A DNA stretch of 64,000 nt from Phoenix dactylifera (taxonomy: Eukaryota; Streptophyta; Magnoliopsida; Arecales; Arecaceae): positions 21,144,899 to 21,208,898 of the forward strand of contig NC_052394.1 in the NCBI RefSeq assembly GCF_009389715.1. Direction: 5' to 3'. The position numbers were made by a program, and so were the translations under genes. Of this stretch, positions 12,229 to 60,416 are shown piece after piece. Position 1 is the first letter of the stretch. Each line of letters opens with the position of its first letter. The notes under the pieces are model-generated. The model was given only the letters and a program-made list of their open reading frames with translations, was not told where the DNA came from and made no database searches.

Positions 12229-12324
12229 AGATCCTGCCTGATACTTTGAACTTCATTCTTCTCCAAATATAGTAGTTCAGCAACCCATGAGTGATCATCT
12301 GGTTGATTTAGAAACTTGACTACC

Positions 12325-15300
12325 ATGACTTCCCCAGGATCGGTGAATGCTACCAGATCCAATGAAGCTATACAAGCAGCGGAAGATTACAACATTCCAC
12401 CTAAGCTGAAATTTTTGATGAATCGAGTTCAAGCCCTGGTAACAACTCAACTTACATCTGATAACTTTCTTACATGGAAAGCTCAAATCACAAGAATATT
12501 TAAGGCCAGTGGCTATCTGGGTTTCTTGGATGGTTCTACTACCTACACCCAGTCATCTGATACCTCTGATTCCTCTGCATATGAGGCTTGGCTATTAATA
12601 GATCAATATCTGGCCACGGCTCTAAACTCTACTATATCCTCCACCATCTTACCTTATGTCATTAATCTAGAGCATTGCCATCAAATATGGACAGCCTTGG
12701 ATTGCAGATTAAATTCTGCAACAAGAACTCATATTATCCAGCTCAAAAATGAGCTTCACAATATCAAGAAACAGGGAGTATCAATGTCACAATATCTACA
12801 TGATATTCGTCTCAAAGTCGATGCTCTGGCAGCTGCTGGTTCCTTAATTGATCCAGAGGATATTATACTTCATGTTCTTAATGGACTCCCGGCTTCCTAT
12901 GATTCGTTTGCCACAGCAATTCGAACGCGTCCCTCTACACTCTCTTTGGATGAACTGTATGCTCTCCTATGCAGTGAGGAAATCATATTATCTAACAAAG
13001 AAAGGCAACAGTCAGCCACTGACTCCTCCTTCGCCTTATCTGCTATACGTGGGAGGGGACGAGGTGGACGCTTCTTCTATCCACATAAAGGTAGAGGTCG
13101 GGCAAGATCTGACTCCCGACCAGACGTCTGGCATTATTCTGGACGTGGGGGATCGAGCAAAGGCCTCCTTGAATGTCAAATATGTGGCAAGCGAGGGCAC
13201 TCGGCAGCAACTTGTTGGTATCGTCTGGATACCACTTATATGGGAAATCAGCAGTCTTCTTCTGGTCATCAAGCTTACCTTACAGCTCCCTCCAGGTCTC
13301 CTTCTTCGACTGAATGGATAGTTGATAGTGGTGCGACTACTCATCTAACCGCTGATTCCTCTGCCATTCAACACTCAACTCCATATCGGGGACATGATCA
13401 GGTTACCATTGGTAATGGGGATTCTATTCCCATCAGTCATATAGGGGACGGTACACTCCACACTTCAGCTCATTCTTTTCATCTCTCTCAAATTCTTCAT
13501 GTACCTCACATCTCCCACAATCTCCTATCTGTCCACAAACTTGCTACTGATAATAACTGCATTCTCATATTTGATTCTGCTGGCTGTGTTATAAAGGACA
13601 AACAAAGCAATCGGATCCTTTTTCAGGGGCGCTGCACTGAGGGACTCTATCGCATTCCCTTCACCTTTGTTCAGCATGGTTCGATTTCTACATCACCAGC
13701 CAAAGCGTTGCTCTCAACATCTTCTCCTGTCCCCTCATGGCATCTACGTCTTGGACATCCAACTGTCTCTGTTATCTCTCAAATTGCTAAGAACTCCTTG
13801 CTCAAAGGCATTCACCCATCATCTACACTCTGCTCCACCTGTTGCATGGCCAAAAGTCACAAGCTCCCCTTCAAACCAGCTCACATCTCTTCTACGAAGC
13901 CTCTTGATCTCATTCATTCGGATGTGTGGGGTCCTTCTCCTTCACCATCGGTTACAGGTTTTCAGTATTATGTCTTGTTTTTGGATGATTTTTCAAGGTT
14001 TTGTTGGGTATATCCTCTGGTGTCAAAGTCTGATGTATTCTCTACATTTGTACATTTTAAAACAATGATTGAGAATCAACTTTCCACCAAAATAAAGAGG
14101 TTCCGCTCTGATGGGGGTGGGGAATTTAACAACCAGCGCTTTCACAACTTATTTTCCACTTCTGGCATCGTTCATCAAATGTCTTCCCCTTACACTCCCG
14201 AACAAAATGGAGCAGCCGAACGGAAACATCGTCATCTCCTTGAGGTTGTTCGAAGTCTACTTCTTCACTCCTCTGTTCCGAATCACTTCTGGGTTGAAGC
14301 CTTACTCACTGCCGTTTTTCTTATCAATAGACTACCTTCTCAGTCACTTCTTCACAAATCCCCTTATGAGATACTCTTCCATCGGCACCCTGACTACAGT
14401 TTTCTAAGAACCTTTGGCTGTCGGTGCTTCCCTTGGCTTCGGCCTTTAGCTCCTACCAAATTCTCACCCAGATCTGTTCCCTGTGTCTTCTTTGGTTATT
14501 CCTCTAAACATAAAGGCTATAGGTGCTATAATCCCCTCACAGGTAAGATCATCATTTCTCGTCATGTCACCTTCGATGAAAACTTCTTTCCGTTCTCAGT
14601 CACCAAGGACACCTCTTCCTCCCAGCCATCACTTCTTCCATATCCACTACTTGTCCCAGCTTCCTTAACACAACGCTTGCCCACTTCCTCTCCTGTCACC
14701 TCTACTACATCTCATTCCTCTTCCCATTCTCTTCCTTCTCCCACCAGCTCTATTTCATCTCCACAACAGAATACCAACATACATCAATGTTCTCCTGTTG
14801 TACGGCCATCTTCAGCTCGTCCTTCCCTTCGTCATCATATGATTACAAGGTCCCAAACTGGTTCACTTCACCCGCGAAGGATTCTTTCTTTACTAACCAA
14901 TGTGTCTTCCCCAACTGAACCAACCTGCTTTTCTACTGCAAATACTGATCCTCATTGGAGAGCAGCAATGTCCCAGGAGTTCAATGCTCTACTGGATCAG
15001 GAAACCTGGGAGTTGGTTCCACGGTCTCCAGAACAGCATGTCCTTGGGTGCAAATGGACATATAAGCTTAAACACAATTCAGATGGTTCATTAGCCAGAT
15101 TTAAAGCTCGTTTGGTAGCTCAGGGCTTTCAGCAACAATATGGCATTGATTATGTTGAAACTTTCAGTCCGGTTGCTAAGTTCCAAACTATCCGCGTGCT
15201 GATCGCACTTGCTCTTTCTTCTCAGTGGGACATTCGCCAACTCGACGTCTCTAATGCCTTTCTCCATGGCAACCTTGATGAGACAGTCTTCATGGAGCAA

Positions 15301-16446
15301 CCCAGAGGATTCACTGATCCCCTACGGAGTGATCATGTCTGTAGACTGAAGAAGGCTATCTACGGTCTGAAGCAAGCTCCTCGGCAATGGTTTGCCACAT
15401 TCTCTGATTTCTTAAGAACTTTAGGATTTCGGGTAAGCACAGCAGATCCTTCCCTGTACTTGCTTCATCAAGGCGACACTGCAGTCTACGTTTTGATCTA
15501 TGTTGATGACATCCTCATAACCGGCAATTGTAATACGGCTATCACTGAGCTCCTTCTCAAGCTGCAGGGTAGATTTAAGATTAAAGATCTTGGCATCCTA
15601 TCTCATTTCTTGGGAATTAAGGCCACTTACTCTTCATCTGGTGTTGCTTTAAACCAATCAACCTATGCCACTGCTCTGCTGAATAAGGCTGGTATGCTGG
15701 ATTGCAAACCAGTACAAACACCATTATCCTCAAAGCAGCAACACACCCCTGACTCAACTTTGTTTTCAGATCCTGAATTATTTCGAAGTCTAGCAGGGTC
15801 TCTACAATACCTTACCATCACTCGGCCAGATATCTCCTTTGCCGTCAACTACATATGTCAATTCATGCACTGTCCACTGCAGCTCCATTACAGCATGTTA
15901 AAACGGATTCTCCGTTATGTTAAAGGAACATTGGATCATTCTCTCTTCTACAAATCAAGCCAGCTGACTCTGTCTGCATATTGTGACTCTGACTGGGCAG
16001 GAAACAATATGGATCGCCGGTCCACAACGGGATACTGCATCTTTCTAGGCACCAATCTCATCTCTTGGTATGCAAAGAAGCAACCAACAGTTGCCAGGTC
16101 GTCCACCGAAGCCGAATACCGGGCTTTAGCCATTACAACCACTGAGCTCATCTGGCTTCGACGACTTCTTCAAGAGCTGCAGATTCCTGTCACTTCTCCT
16201 ACTGATTTGTTCTGTGATAATATCTCAGCCATGACCTTAGCATCAAATCCGGTATTTCATGCACGTACAAAGCACATTGAGGTAGACTACCACTTTGTAC
16301 GTGAGAAAGTTCAATCCAAGGAGGTACATCTAGCTCATATCTCCACCCTAGACCAGCCGGCTGACATCTTCACCAAATCTCTTCCAATGCTGCGACACTC
16401 TCTCATCTGCTCCAAGCTTCATGTTCTTCCAGATCATTCAGCTTGA
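12325..16446 (+). CDS. Copia Gag-Pol polyprotein (intact)
   Basis: One frame of 1373 codons encodes the whole retrotransposon polyprotein. I start at the ATG at 12325; the frame also opens three codons earlier at a TTG, which is not a likely plant start. Domains in order: Gag (about 1-270, UBN2 type); an RG-rich stretch; a CCHC zinc knuckle (CQICGKRGHSAATC, near residue 284); aspartic protease (WIVDSGATTHLT, near 334); GAG-pre-integrase His/Cys region (WHLRLGH... CSTCCMAKSHK, from about 472); integrase core (IHSDVWGPS, RSDGGGEF); reverse transcriptase (WTYKLK, RLVAQGFQQQ, YVDDILITG near 1058); RNase H (YCDSDWAG near 1218, RSSTEAEYRAL). There is no stop or frameshift, so the copy could be functional. 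It carries no intron and ends just before the 3' purine tract. Confidence 0.96.
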   Translation: MTSPGSVNATRSNEAIQAAEDYNIPPKLKFLMNRVQALVTTQLTSDNFLTWKAQITRIFKASGYLGFLDGSTTYTQSSDTSDSSAYEAWLLIDQYLATALNSTISSTILPYVINLEHCHQIWTALDCRLNSATRTHIIQLKNELHNIKKQGVSMSQYLHDIRLKVDALAAAGSLIDPEDIILHVLNGLPASYDSFATAIRTRPSTLSLDELYALLCSEEIILSNKERQQSATDSSFALSAIRGRGRGGRFFYPHKGRGRARSDSRPDVWHYSGRGGSSKGLLECQICGKRGHSAATCWYRLDTTYMGNQQSSSGHQAYLTAPSRSPSSTEWIVDSGATTHLTADSSAIQHSTPYRGHDQVTIGNGDSIPISHIGDGTLHTSAHSFHLSQILHVPHISHNLLSVHKLATDNNCILIFDSAGCVIKDKQSNRILFQGRCTEGLYRIPFTFVQHGSISTSPAKALLSTSSPVPSWHLRLGHPTVSVISQIAKNSLLKGIHPSSTLCSTCCMAKSHKLPFKPAHISSTKPLDLIHSDVWGPSPSPSVTGFQYYVLFLDDFSRFCWVYPLVSKSDVFSTFVHFKTMIENQLSTKIKRFRSDGGGEFNNQRFHNLFSTSGIVHQMSSPYTPEQNGAAERKHRHLLEVVRSLLLHSSVPNHFWVEALLTAVFLINRLPSQSLLHKSPYEILFHRHPDYSFLRTFGCRCFPWLRPLAPTKFSPRSVPCVFFGYSSKHKGYRCYNPLTGKIIISRHVTFDENFFPFSVTKDTSSSQPSLLPYPLLVPASLTQRLPTSSPVTSTTSHSSSHSLPSPTSSISSPQQNTNIHQCSPVVRPSSARPSLRHHMITRSQTGSLHPRRILSLLTNVSSPTEPTCFSTANTDPHWRAAMSQEFNALLDQETWELVPRSPEQHVLGCKWTYKLKHNSDGSLARFKARLVAQGFQQQYGIDYVETFSPVAKFQTIRVLIALALSSQWDIRQLDVSNAFLHGNLDETVFMEQPRGFTDPLRSDHVCRLKKAIYGLKQAPRQWFATFSDFLRTLGFRVSTADPSLYLLHQGDTAVYVLIYVDDILITGNCNTAITELLLKLQGRFKIKDLGILSHFLGIKATYSSSGVALNQSTYATALLNKAGMLDCKPVQTPLSSKQQHTPDSTLFSDPELFRSLAGSLQYLTITRPDISFAVNYICQFMHCPLQLHYSMLKRILRYVKGTLDHSLFYKSSQLTLSAYCDSDWAGNNMDRRSTTGYCIFLGTNLISWYAKKQPTVARSSTEAEYRALAITTTELIWLRRLLQELQIPVTSPTDLFCDNISAMTLASNPVFHARTKHIEVDYHFVREKVQSKEVHLAHISTLDQPADIFTKSLPMLRHSLICSKLHVLPDHSA

Positions 16447-55092: not shown

Positions 55093-58000
55093 TCAGACAA
55101 ACTCGAAACGCACGAGCAACTTCGCAGAATTGAGCTTTACTCCCTTGTGGTCATAGAGCGGCACGGCTCGGATCCCCGGCCTCAATTCTAATACAGGCAG
55201 GCAGGTCTGTCCGCCGAAGTCATTCTGGGGCGTGTTGCACTTACGGACTTTGAAACTCAGCAAAGCCAGTTCTGGAACAGTTAATGGGAAACCAAATTCC
55301 TCATCCCATACTGGTGTCCAATCATCATATATCGTTCTCGTTCTCTTCTGCATGGTATCAGCTGGCACTCCAACTATCCCTACCTGGAAATTGAAACACA
55401 AGTTGCTTCCCATGTTATATATCAACAAGATTGCACATCACATTAGCAACTGTGACATGCAAGGTCCAAGTTAAACATGAGTAGGAAGGCACAGAAAGCA
55501 GGGTGGAGACTATGGTTTTAAATTCTGACCTTCATGTAGAAATCTGGAGGGGAATAGACATCAAAATGCAGATGCTTAAAATCCAAGCGCCATCCGTCTC
55601 CCATATATACTTTAACCTGTTATGAGCGTATGAATTTAGGAAACTTGGCAAAAGGAGGATAGATGCATATATAATTCACAAAGGACCCACCTTTAAGGTT
55701 TTCTTCACAGGTAATCTTGCTTTGGGATCAAATACCTGACCATTTGGATTGGCCTCTAGCAAGAAATCAGGCTTTTTTACATAACCACAACCACCATTGG
55801 CTCTGAAAAATCCATGCATCAGCCAAAGAGATCTTCCATGTCCCTATCAAAGGGGAAGACAGACAAACTAATCAGTCTATGAAGTGCCAATTTGTGGAAA
55901 TCCTCAATATATAGATTAATAAGAAAATGACATATGGGATTATCTATGCTAGGGGAATTGAGTTTGGACAAAAATGGAAACTTAATTTTTTTTTTTTTGT
56001 TGAGAAATCAACAATAACAATTTTATTCATGTGATCTTGTTTGGAATTCATGTGATAATCTTGTGTATGAATTTCTTCGGGTTTCTATAGGAAATTTTCT
56101 AATTTTTAGCATTTTTTGTGATGATTTAGGATTAAAATGGAAAAACATAATAAAGAAATCAGTTTGTTGAGTTGTGTGATTTTATTTGTAAAACCTTGAT
56201 TGCTGTACACTATCTTTTCCGCTCATATAATTTATGAACTTTACTCTCCAATGTTTCCCTTCATAATTCCAACTCAGCATTCAGCAGTGTTCTATCTCAT
56301 CAAACATAATATGAAAAACAGAAAAAAAAACTTATTCTAAGAGGTATTCTAATTATCACTAATTATTGATCTATGATGAGGGTAAAGAAAAATAAATAAT
56401 GCCCATCTTAACAAGCAGCCAGCAATTTGACAGACCAAAATCTAGAGAGAGAGAGAGAGGCAACAAATATCAGACACCCAATAGTTGAAGAATTTGCTCA
56501 TTCGGTATGGTAAGATGTAGTTTGCAAGTGAAGATGCTTAACATTTGCATAATTGCTTGTTTTAACCAATTAAATTTACAAGCTGCCCGAACTTTTACCA
56601 TGTAGTATTAGGTACCGTCATCCAAACGTGTCCTGCTCGTGTTTGAAAACAATGAATCAGCATAAGGAAAGTCTGCAAGGGATTTTTCTTTTTTCTGTCT
56701 AGGAAAAAGATGGGGCTAACAAAGTCTGCAAGGGATGTCTGTAACCAGCATTTTGTTGTTATTATATGTATATAAACCTTATATAAGCCTCAATCTTAGC
56801 AGAAAATTTGATAAGTCTCACAACAACTATAATGTTGTTTCTTATTTTAAATCAAAAGTTCACAAAGCAACGATCTCTAGTTCTCATCAATTTACCCATC
56901 TGAAATTCCAACACTGATGTTTTTGTTAAATATAAAAGAAAGATCATGAGTTATGCGAGCGTAACTGATCATAGCAAATTATCAGCTCACTTGTTGAGCA
57001 TGGAAGCTAACCTGCATGTTAAATGCAACCATCTGTGCACCATGCCGCCACCCAAGCAAAGGTTTGTAGTTAGAAGAGGTAATACGTGTACCTTTCGGGT
57101 ATATCCTGATCAAATTCTTCTGAGTGAACCTATGATGCCAAGCAGAACAATTCTCAGTCAGATTAAAGAGGACAAGAATGTGTCAGGCTAGTCTCCTTTC
57201 TGCAGCTTCTGCCACACAGAGCATAAATTAAAAATACACTAATTTGACTCATCTAGAAAATAAAATAGAACATCTGCAGGTGGTTAAGTAATCGCCATGA
57301 TAAATGGCTCGGCTTTGTTCTGACATCCAAGGAAACTAGACCTTCTGATCGACCAAACCACATATTTAGTCTCAAATAGATTGATGTTTATTAAGAATGT
57401 AAATATTACCTTACTACATCATCTCTATGGGATGCTGCTGCCTTAACAAACTCCTGCTCGCTCAAGCTAAGCCGCTTTACTTGGTCATGATCCAGCTTTA
57501 GCGAGTCTCCCAGCCGGCCTTTAGGTTTCTGAGCATGAATAGTGATAAGTAGTCTGTATTGAGGTGCTGAATTCTGCAGGAAGAAGTCATCACCATCAGT
57601 ATCTTACTCCTGATCATGTTTGTTCCGTTCGTGATCATTCTGCCAGAGATTGATGGCATTTAATGGTGATCAGTGTCAATGAGTCAAATCTAAGTTCTGA
57701 AAATAAAGCTCTAGGATTAGTAAAATTTATACATGTATGGACATATCAAAAAAATCAGGCTCCCGAAGTGGGCCTCAGCACCCAGGCCAAGAGACCGAGC
57801 ACAAAGGCCCTGTTAGTAGGCTTTGATAATGAAAAAAAAGAAAATGCAGAAGCAGTGTTGGTATACAGTTCTCTGTGTTAAGACCTTCCGATGCTATTAG
57901 CCAGTCTATAGCACGATTACCGAAACTAGAACAAGTGACCATAGCCCACAATGCTTTCTTTCCTAAAGTGACTAAACTAAGTTTGATAGAGGAAGCTGTT

Positions 58001-60416
58001 TATGTAGCGAAGCTTTTTGTGCCATATGATCGGTATTGATCTTCATTTTATACATTTTCTTAGAAACTGCTCAAGTCGGTATCCTATAAATACAAGATAC
58101 ATCATAACATGAAAGAAAAAAAAATATGTGCACCTTATCATCATATTCGAGTTCAGGTTTTTGTTCTGTAAACTCTGTTGCCGATGTTTCATCATCAGAT
58201 GTTACCTTTCCCTTTTGAGAGTTGTTCTCCTTAGGCCGTTTACTCGAAATAATGATCATCTTCTTAAGAGCATCTGGAGAAGGAAAATCCTCAAGAGTTT
58301 CTGTCTGGGGGTAATAAAGCATGTCTCCAAATATTCCAGTGATCATCTGAAAAAAACGAATACCACACTTAAAATTAAGGATCCAGAGAACTACAAATTC
58401 AAATTTAGAATGATACTCACATCAGCTAGTTTAGCCTGAAGATCTGGGGTGAGGTGGTCCTCTAGAGTTATCACAACAGGGTACTCCGATGCACAAAAAG
58501 CATACTCTTTAATGGACCTCAAACATTTGATGAGTTTCACTGGTTTTGTCAGTGTCCTTCAAATGCAGTAAGCAAGCTACTAAGGGTAGTGCCAACATGA
58601 AGGAAAGATTAAAATATAAAGGCTTTAAATTAAAGATATATGCAATCAGCTGAGTCTACAGTTGGTAGCAGAAAGAAAAGGCCTAATCAGCATAAGAAGA
58701 GCACTTTTTCAGGCCTTGTTTCAAATTATGATTTCAAGGAAATTAACCTTGTTAGCAGTGTCTTGGAGAAAACAGAGCATCCCTAGTTAATAATGCTAAT
58801 ATTGTGCCCACTGTTGAAGAACAAAACTATCATCAAGTGGATATTGAAATTAACTATAGATAGATGGGTAGATAGACAGACAGACAGACAGATAGATTGA
58901 TAGGATTTTCAAACTTTTCTTACAACATCATCAACCACTTTAAGGTGGCGAATATCTGTTGCACGAGACAGCTAGGTTACACATTTTACGCAGAATCCAC
59001 AATCTCAATAACAAGTAATATTGAGCATCACAACAATAACATCAATAAAGATTTTGATAGGGTTGGAAATACCTTCCATGGAAAACTTTAACATTATCTT
59101 TTGCAGAATTTGGCCACAAATCCAGCTCAATTACTCTGACACCTCTCTGCAACGCTTCTATGATTGGGACATCACTGCACTTGCTGTTAAGCTGGTTTCC
59201 GGTCAAGTATGAATTATGGCCTGTGTACATGTAATAATGAGACAATGGAGCAGTCATATCTTGGCGAACCTGGAATAAAAAATTAATTTGAAACACCTCA
59301 TGTTAGTACCAAAAAATAAATAATAAAAGAACAACCCTTAATCAAACAACTATTTTTACTTTAAGAGATATAAAAAAAAAGCAAATTAACATAAGGTTCG
59401 CAGCTGCCATGAGAAATATATAGTTTTGGAGGAAAATATCAGATATTGCATGAGGGTCGAAGTTATGTTCATCACTTTACAACTAGAGTATTACTGTAAG
59501 TCCCTGGGTGGTCCATATAAAAGTACCATAATTTAACTTAGCTATGAAATAAAAATTTCGCTCTCCATTTGTATGGAATATATAGAAAATGCTTTGAGAC
59601 ACCAATTGGTGAATGCAAAATATTTCTTGCGCTCACATAATGCTGCTCTGTCCGCTCGATATTTGGCCATTTTCTGCGTGCTGCACTACTTTTCACGAGT
59701 TATATGCTAGTCCCTTGGCTACATGGAAAGTAAACTATTTGTATGCATGAATTAGGAGTGCAGATTCTTTGCAATCTTAGTTAAGACTGCACGAGATATC
59801 TACAATCAGGATATGTGGCAAATTCTGATTAGTTGTGCAACTTGAGCTGCATAATTAAGGCACATATTATGTTACCAGAAACCAATCTTTCTTTTCATTG
59901 TAAGCAATTTTTGCATGATGAACATATTATGTAATCAGAAACCAACCTTTCTTTTCATTGTAAGCAATTTTTGCATGATGATGTATTTATTTGACCCCGC
60001 TAATTAATAATCCATTTTTTTTCTTCTCGCGAGCTGCAAGAGCAGAAAGGTGACGCTTGACCCGAGGCGTAGCGCTATGCCTAGTCTACCATGTTAGATC
60101 CTGGGTTCGCGCGTGGGAAACGGACCTGTGCCTGGATGGGTGGGTTGAGCTCGTCGGAGAAGAGGTAGCGGCTGTGGAAGTCCACCAGCGTGAGGAGTGG
60201 GCGGCCGAGGAGGTGGTGGAGGTAGTGGAGCAGCCGGACCCGGTCTACGATCAGCTTGGCGTCGGCGAGGGTGGCGCCGGCCTCGCCCTGGGCCTCGGCG
60301 AGGAAGCAGAGGAGATCGTCGGGCCCCATGTGGTTGCCGCCATCGGTGTCGGGCTCGAAGGCCACCTTCCGCCGGAGCTTCCGAGTGAAGAAGAGGCAGT
60401 GCTTGTAGCTCCCCAT
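55093..60416 (-). CDS. Phosphoinositide-specific phospholipase C, copy B (in-frame stop in exon 5)
   Basis: Nine exons matching copy A: 60126-60416, 59073-59269, 58421-58556, 58134-58346, 57410-57639, 57012-57129, 55691-55843, 55530-55616, 55093-55383. Exons 2, 3, 6, 7 and 8 have exactly the lengths of copy A. The X-domain residues are kept (HNSYLTG, ELDLW, HGRTLT, ITLEDH), as are Y and C2. Exon 5, aligned to copy A, contains TAA at 57604-57606 in the linker, which would give a 290-residue protein of EF-like and X regions only. However, TTCTTCCTGCAG|AATTC creates an acceptor at 57574 in the same phase. Using it (exon 57410-57573) removes 22 codons with the stop and gives 549 aa, with only the linker shortened. 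So it may be a pseudogene in the making or a functional shorter isoform. The N-terminus is 8 residues shorter than in copy A and the poly-Asp run is absent. Confidence 0.85.
57604..57606 (-). other. In-frame stop codon in PLC copy B exon 5
   Basis: TAA on the gene strand follows DQE in the linker; copy A has DQED at the same place. The frame after it continues in register with copy A, so this is a nonsense change and not a frameshift. Confidence 0.85.
58857..58904. repeat. GATA/GACA microsatellite in PLC copy B intron 2
   Basis: Units of GATA and GACA follow one another over about 48 bp, with a few interruptions. Intronic. Confidence 0.85.
59862..59981. repeat. 60-bp tandem duplication in PLC copy B intron 1
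   Basis: Two adjacent 60-bp units (59862-59921, 59922-59981) share TCTTTTCATTGTAAGCAATT and differ at only a few bases. A recent local duplication. Confidence 0.9.

Follow-up and report, generated by a model that had tools for sequence, protein, structure and literature searches.

Does a PI-PLC gene that carries an in-frame stop still make an enzyme, through a shifted splice site that removes the stop, or is it a duplicate on its way to loss? The question is raised by copy B, a PLC gene in a 64,000-nucleotide stretch of the Phoenix dactylifera genome (GCF_009389715.1, contig NC_052394.1, positions 21,144,899 to 21,208,898; hereafter the window, to which coordinates refer unless another location is named). 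An earlier note, made from the letters alone, had placed a TAA in exon 5 of this gene and offered three readings: that splicing has shifted past the stop, that the gene makes an X-domain-only protein, or that it is a young pseudogene.

Copy B Has Plant PI-PLC Architecture and an In-Frame Stop

Copies A and B both lie on the minus strand of the window. Each has nine exons with GT-AG borders and agreeing phases. The features used in this section are:

55093..60416, minus strand: PLC copy B gene from ATG to stop, nine exons (exon model, GT-AG borders, phases)
60416-60126, 59269-59073, 58556-58421, 58346-58134, 57639-57410, 57129-57012, 55843-55691, 55616-55530, 55383-55093, minus strand: exons 1 to 9 of copy B
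57410..57639, minus strand: copy B exon 5, the end of the X/Y linker and the start of the Y side (model; alignment to copies A, C, and D)
57604..57606, minus strand: in-frame TAA in copy B exon 5 (GAA in sister copy C; Asp codons in copies A and D)
60369..60370, minus strand: site in copy B exon 1 where 27 nt have been lost in frame (alignment; the nine codons are present in C, A, and D)
52687-47957, minus strand: PLC copy A, an intact 597-aa paralogue used for comparison (exon model, Pfam)

Exon 5 of copy B is 230 nt long in our model, is entered in phase 0 and is left in phase 2. We reproduced both the coordinates and the frame of the TAA at 57604-57606. The accompanying claim, that the other exons and borders of the gene are open and canonical, also held: all eight modelled introns are GT-AG, and a scan of the exon model revealed no second internal stop and no frameshift. 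With its canonical exon 5, copy B does not have the uninterrupted frame of a plant PI-PLC, and its frame is open only via an acceptor 66 nt into the exon (the +66 acceptor).

The domain content is that of a plant PI-PLC. In Pfam searches, X, Y, and C2 occurred in order in A, in C and in the two pieces into which the stop divides B, where PI-PLC-X scored 177 bits, PI-PLC-Y 102 and C2 40, all above cut-off. The PI-PLC-X match in the 290-aa piece before the stop is full-length (residues 102-244), and the Y match begins 41 residues into the piece after it. The motifs GHNSYL, IELDLW, FHGRTLT, TLEDHL, SSK, SLSE, and RIYP are all intact in the alignment of B, so that by motif comparison the gene retains the catalytic residues of a plant PI-PLC. 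The correspondence between individual plant motifs and the numbered residues of PLC delta-1 is one that we assume; the alignment to PLC delta-1 was made with copy C, not B, and SLSE fell outside the aligned part. The catalytic residues given for rat PLC delta-1 are His311, Glu341, Asp343, His356, Glu390, Lys440, Ser522, Arg549, and Tyr551, and those listed occur in X as well as Y (PMC11174929, in the excerpt available).

The earlier note was silent on the 27-nt deletion in exon 1 (near 60370). Intron 1 of copy B also contains a 60-bp tandem duplication (59862-59981), the copies of which are 95% identical.

An Intact Sister Gene Lies Just beyond the Window

We searched the genome (773 Mb in 2,391 contigs, with the window at G000:C3:21144899-21208898) for the PI-PLC-X family and obtained 16 matches at the exon level. 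A third tandem copy, C, maps to C3:21216049-21210836, 1.9-7.2 kb past the end of the window, and has nine exons, canonical borders and an intact open frame of 580 aa. Its location is outside the window, and the earlier note did not mention it. Among the copies aligned, C is the nearest to B by a wide margin and on this evidence is its sister. Copy D, on C13, is intact; copies E (C13) and F (at another place on C3) are more distant relatives.

Several side observations came from these comparisons. A PLC fragment on the minus strand of C13 (L011/L012, G000:C13:10073517 and 10070189) carries exons 1 and 2, with border sequences near-identical to those of copy D; tblastn with the exons of copy A detected no exons 3-9 in the stretch fetched there. 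In exon 9 (55093-55383 in B), a C2 loop reads VHKFN in C, VRKCN in B and VHEYD in A and D, and a one-residue deletion is common to B and C. The Pfam score for C2 is 54.2 bits in A and 39.7 in both B and C. A weak PI-PLC-X match (33.9 bits) at G000:C128:377066-377353 lies inside a 335-aa open frame that is perhaps an X-domain-only protein. Elsewhere in the window, a single open frame of 1376 aa on the plus strand (12316-16446) is possibly a retroelement.

Copy C also allowed us to polarise the stop. The codon at this position is GAA in C, with no gap between B and C, and the aligned codons are GAT in A and GAC in D, in a part of the linker where the alignment is gappy. Because C has GAA and aligns to B without a gap, the most plausible origin of the stop is a single G>T change in the lineage of B. 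Relative to its intact sister, B has the disabling lesion of a pseudogene. Under neutrality, about 1.2-1.6 stops would be expected on the B branch for 33-42 substitutions, and one is observed. We considered skipping of exon 5 alone (230 nt) or of exons 4 and 5 together (443 nt) as a rescue and rejected both, as neither length is a multiple of three.

Copy B Appears Near-Neutral but Lacks Frameshifts

We fitted a four-taxon branch codon model to copies A, B, C, and D, coding the stop as missing data. The omega estimates were 0.89 (B), 0.67 (C), 0.42 (the B/C stem) and 0.19 (A and D). A value of 1.0 was not rejected for B (p=0.80) while 0.19 was (p=5e-5), and the same was true of C (p=0.39 and p=0.003, respectively). 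A model in which a single omega served A, B, D, and the stem, and only C had its own, was also rejected (p=0.0013). B and C differ at 71 of 1716 exon sites (4.1%) and 165 of 3436 intron sites (4.8%). We polarised the exon differences by parsimony, using A and D as outgroups. The changes that could be assigned clearly numbered 28 nonsynonymous and 5 synonymous on B and 13 and 7, respectively, on C, and 18 of the 71 were ambiguous. In these models, codon evolution on the B branch is indistinguishable from neutral, which favors a decaying duplicate. However, omega alone is not decisive for a pseudogene call: since the stop-free copy C is near-neutral too, relaxed evolution by itself is no mark of a dead gene.

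Two further comparisons concern the coding sequence. Between B and C we counted 18 indels in 3,436 aligned intron nucleotides, 14 of them of the frameshift type, and a single coding indel, which is in frame. If coding sequence gained indels at the intron rate, an assumption tempered by the possibility that introns are more indel-prone, B should have about 3.5 frameshifts and has none (P=0.03); for both copies together, 7 are expected and none is found (P=0.0009). The exons that encode the barrel (2, 3, 6, 7, and 8) contain 12 B-C differences in 691 sites, compared to 59 in 1025 for the rest, and exon 2 (59073-59269) has none in 197 sites, compared to 4.3% in the local introns (Fisher p=0.0004). 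Five of the 12 barrel changes fall on B, or six with one that is ambiguous, versus 12.4 expected from gene-body divergence if the barrel were neutral (P=0.016 or 0.037). The absence of frameshifts and the conservation of the barrel suggest that B had a coding role for at least part of its history.

Raised B-C Divergence Surrounds the Stop

Divergence between B and C is unevenly distributed along the gene, and one segment stands out:

57287..58187, minus strand: island of raised B-C divergence (81 of 850 aligned sites) that runs from late exon 4 through intron 4 and exon 5 into early intron 5

Divergence in this island (58187-57287) is 9.5%, compared to 3.6% (184 of 5135 sites) in the rest of the gene body from 59990 down, and none of 5000 permutations reached 9.5% in either of two runs. 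The TAA of copy B is inside it. Weak protein constraint does not explain the island, because divergence is raised in introns 4 and 5 as well. Upstream of the gene, B and C differ by 7.5-15% in aligned bins, and just upstream of the ATG by 19-24% in short global alignments. Exon 1 is intermediate (17 of 291 sites, 5.8%; p=0.055 versus the body). Exon 2 is identical in B and C while its flanking introns differ by 4-5%.

From this mosaic we infer that gene conversion, in either direction, partly homogenised B and C and left out the island around exon 5; regional differences in mutation rate or another recombination history are alternative explanations. The intact frame elsewhere in B may owe something to conversion as well as to selection. 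Conversion of B from A was rejected, as B does not come closer to A in exons 4 and 5 than C does (44 and 42 of 207; 61 and 55 of 234). We also dropped the argument that both lesions of B lie in unconverted sequence (a chance of 0.11 if exon 1 is unconverted), since exon 1 is intermediate; with exon 1 so weakly raised, the link between lesions and unconverted sequence is carried by exon 5.

The mosaic bears on the inference that the open remainder of B supports shifted splicing. That the remainder is open is true, but the argument is weaker than it first seemed, because conversion with C appears to have evened out most of the body of B but not the island containing the stop. A purely functional reading drawn from the intact remainder is set back by this mosaic and by the near-neutral codon evolution.

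A Strong In-Phase Acceptor Could Remove the Stop

The candidate splice site and the segment that it would remove are:

57574..57585, minus strand: candidate 3' splice site TTCTTCCTGCAG, at the end of which exon 5 would begin (PWM score 10.38, versus 7.97 for the native acceptor at 57640/57639)
57574..57639, minus strand: 66-nt segment, 22 codons including the stop, removable by the +66 acceptor (phase arithmetic)

As the earlier note had proposed, the acceptor at 57574/57573 lies 30 nt past the stop, and its use would drop exactly 66 nt in phase. We scored acceptors using a position weight matrix (PWM) of 23 positions trained on 32 sites of copies A, D, E, and F, a small set from one family. 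On this scale the +66 site beats the native exon-5 acceptor both in B (10.38 versus 7.97) and in C (8.37 versus 7.17). Six PLC genes together contain 642 AGs within exons 2-9, and the B site ranks first among them; of 48 real acceptors, 12 equal or exceed its 10.38. In the other five genes, exons 2-9 comprise 2,392 codons, not one of which is followed within 90 nt by an in-phase AG of such strength. Eight of the 642 exonic AGs reach 7.97, and the +66 sites of B and C are the only ones in phase. In this site copy B has the credible frame-preserving acceptor that intronization or an alternative 3' splice site would use.

Within the 23 scored bases, B and C differ only at offset 61, where a B-derived A>T change (CAG to CTG) both strengthens the +66 site and abolishes a competing CAG three bases upstream. 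The acceptor was probably present in the B/C ancestor and then became stronger in B. A CTGAT motif resembling a branch point places its A at -23 of the site.

Other measurements argue for caution. Seven other exonic AGs score 8.3-9.7, several of them within conserved coding motifs; high-scoring exonic AGs occur at exon 4 +73 in A, B, and C (8.4-8.6) and at exon 8 +73 in B (9.7). As conserved exonic AGs also score high, we did not accept a PWM score as proof of splicing use. CTRAY motifs are not rare near exonic AGs (125 of 452). The +66 site does not have a T-rich upstream context: T makes up a fraction of 0.27 in the preceding 48 nt, which ranks at the 2nd percentile among 48 real acceptors and at an ordinary 56th among 480 exonic AGs, although the native exon-5 sites are also poor (0.31 in B and 0.27 in C). 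The sequence upstream of the +66 acceptor is exon-like. Because other exonic AGs score high, T content is low and CTRAY motifs are common, we regard the +66 site as a good candidate splice site rather than a demonstrated one.

The remaining AGs near the stop offer no substitute. Between the stop and the +66 site there is a single AG, at offset 37, which is in the wrong phase and has a score of -2.3, and use of the AGs at offsets 30 and 33 would retain the stop.

Splicing at the +66 acceptor is predicted to yield a 549-aa PLC that lacks 22 linker positions and keeps all of the catalytic motifs. The removed segment falls between the X and Y matches, in the gappy, least conserved stretch of the linker alignment, in agreement with the claim that the shift would join X to Y across a non-conserved linker. 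Most animal PLCs are autoinhibited by their charged X-Y linker, although PLC-zeta loses activity when it is missing (PMC12195575, as far as the excerpt goes). Our search of the plant PLC literature found no equivalent test of the X-Y linker, and none of the titles that it listed concerned variable splicing of this linker in a plant PLC.

Decay, Splice Rescue and Other Readings of Copy B

On balance, we lean towards copy B being a dispensable, decaying tandem duplicate of the intact copy C. After B and C separated, constraint would have relaxed on both copies, and conversion between them would have homogenised the greater part of intron 1, the stretch from exon 2 into exon 4 (all but its end), and exons 6-9 while sparing the exon-5 island. 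The single G>T change would have created the stop in the acidic linker between X and Y, within that unconverted island, and exon 1 would have lost nine codons. A stop upstream of introns is expected to trigger nonsense-mediated decay, and canonical splicing of B would leave the premature stop upstream of four introns. Through the inherited +66 acceptor, some transcripts would probably escape and encode the 549-aa product; such a leak may soften the loss, and we do not think that it is what keeps the gene. In favor of decay are the intact sister, an omega close to neutral, a single stop that matches the neutral expectation and the position of this stop in the island. The absence of frameshifts, the conserved barrel exons, the intact catalytic motifs and the near-neutrality of C, despite its lack of a stop, argue against it. 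That B lacks function is a judgment from sequence.

The three readings of the earlier note fared differently. Shifted splicing is credible because the acceptor is phase-correct, unusually strong for an exonic AG and common to C, and a young pseudogene accords with the near-neutral codons, whereas the X-only protein is disfavored by the expected nonsense-mediated decay. As a full account of the gene, splice rescue is possible, though we think it rather less than probable. The 3' site of intron 4 would have moved 66 nt, making the TAA intronic in an incipient intronization; as the acceptor pre-dated the stop and is present in C, the linker would already have been optional and the stop nearly neutral when it arose, and decay of the long form would leave the short form as the only productive one. 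The strength of the +66 site relative to the native acceptors and to all 642 exonic AGs, the derived change at offset 61, the CTGAT motif, the lack of frameshifts and the intact catalytic motifs fit such a rescue. The segment is also short, a multiple of three and in the least conserved part of the linker, as the intronization hypothesis predicts (PMC2586383, in the part available). Against it are the near-neutral coding sequence, the scores of 8.4-9.7 for exonic AGs in conserved motifs, the frequency of CTRAY, the low upstream T content and an intact frame that may stem partly from conversion. The bolder form of this proposal is that intronization by acceptor shift has been caught under way in a pair of sister PLC genes sharing a strong acceptor 66 nt into exon 5: the segment would be open in C, and in B the acceptor would be stronger and the stop present, so that productive B mRNA would be limited to a form encoding a PLC whose acidic, possibly autoinhibitory linker between X and Y is shortened. 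We offer this tentatively and think it doubtful.

An unlikely alternative is that the gene otherwise works and that its stop is an allele, heterozygous or rare, or an error in base calling. The stop is a single base difference in the one haploid sequence examined, and date palm is described as highly heterozygous, with a FALCON-Unzip primary assembly from which haplotigs are separate (PMC6794320, in the passages available). However, the same passages describe polishing with long and short reads, and a lone error would not explain the near-neutral pattern, given the excess of replacement changes in B and its exon 1 deletion. A functional 290-aa protein with an EF-hand-like region and the X domain, but without Y and C2, strikes us as highly improbable. 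The full-length 177-bit PI-PLC-X match is what speaks for it; against it, besides the four introns after the stop, the frame beyond the stop has neither shifted nor gained another stop, the barrel needs both X and Y, and catalytic residues are found in both (PMC11174929, same excerpt).

Relation to Known Systems and Implications

Copy B resembles plant PI-PLCs of the X/Y/C2 subfamily in domain order, catalytic motifs and the nine-exon structure found in A to D, and departs from them in its internal stop, its nine-codon deletion in exon 1 and its altered C2 loop, the last of which is also seen in C. Non-processed pseudogenes derived from tandem duplicates are a second class for comparison in plants. 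Like these, B contains introns, lies beside intact sisters, carries a nonsense change and has an omega close to neutral; unlike them, it has only one stop, no frameshift, canonical borders and conserved barrel exons. In common with intronization as described in the accessible parts of PMC2586383 and PMC9612004, B has a stop-bearing segment of 3n length under low constraint, a plausible splice site and an intact relative that reads through, but here an existing intron would be extended by a putative alternative acceptor and no new intron would arise. Exitrons likewise involve a spliceable coding stretch; for B, no internal donor is proposed, only an alternative 3' site.

As a case, copy B is fairly ordinary and mostly looks like a spare, decaying duplicate. 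Should splicing use the shifted acceptor, B and C would form a matched pair, one with a stop and a strong acceptor and the other with no stop and a weaker acceptor, in which intronization could be tested in a plant and the effect of trimming the acidic X/Y linker on plant PLC activity could be measured. If the acceptor is unused, B would be an example of gene conversion making a decaying duplicate look almost intact, a masking of decay that matters for pseudogene calls made from one genome.
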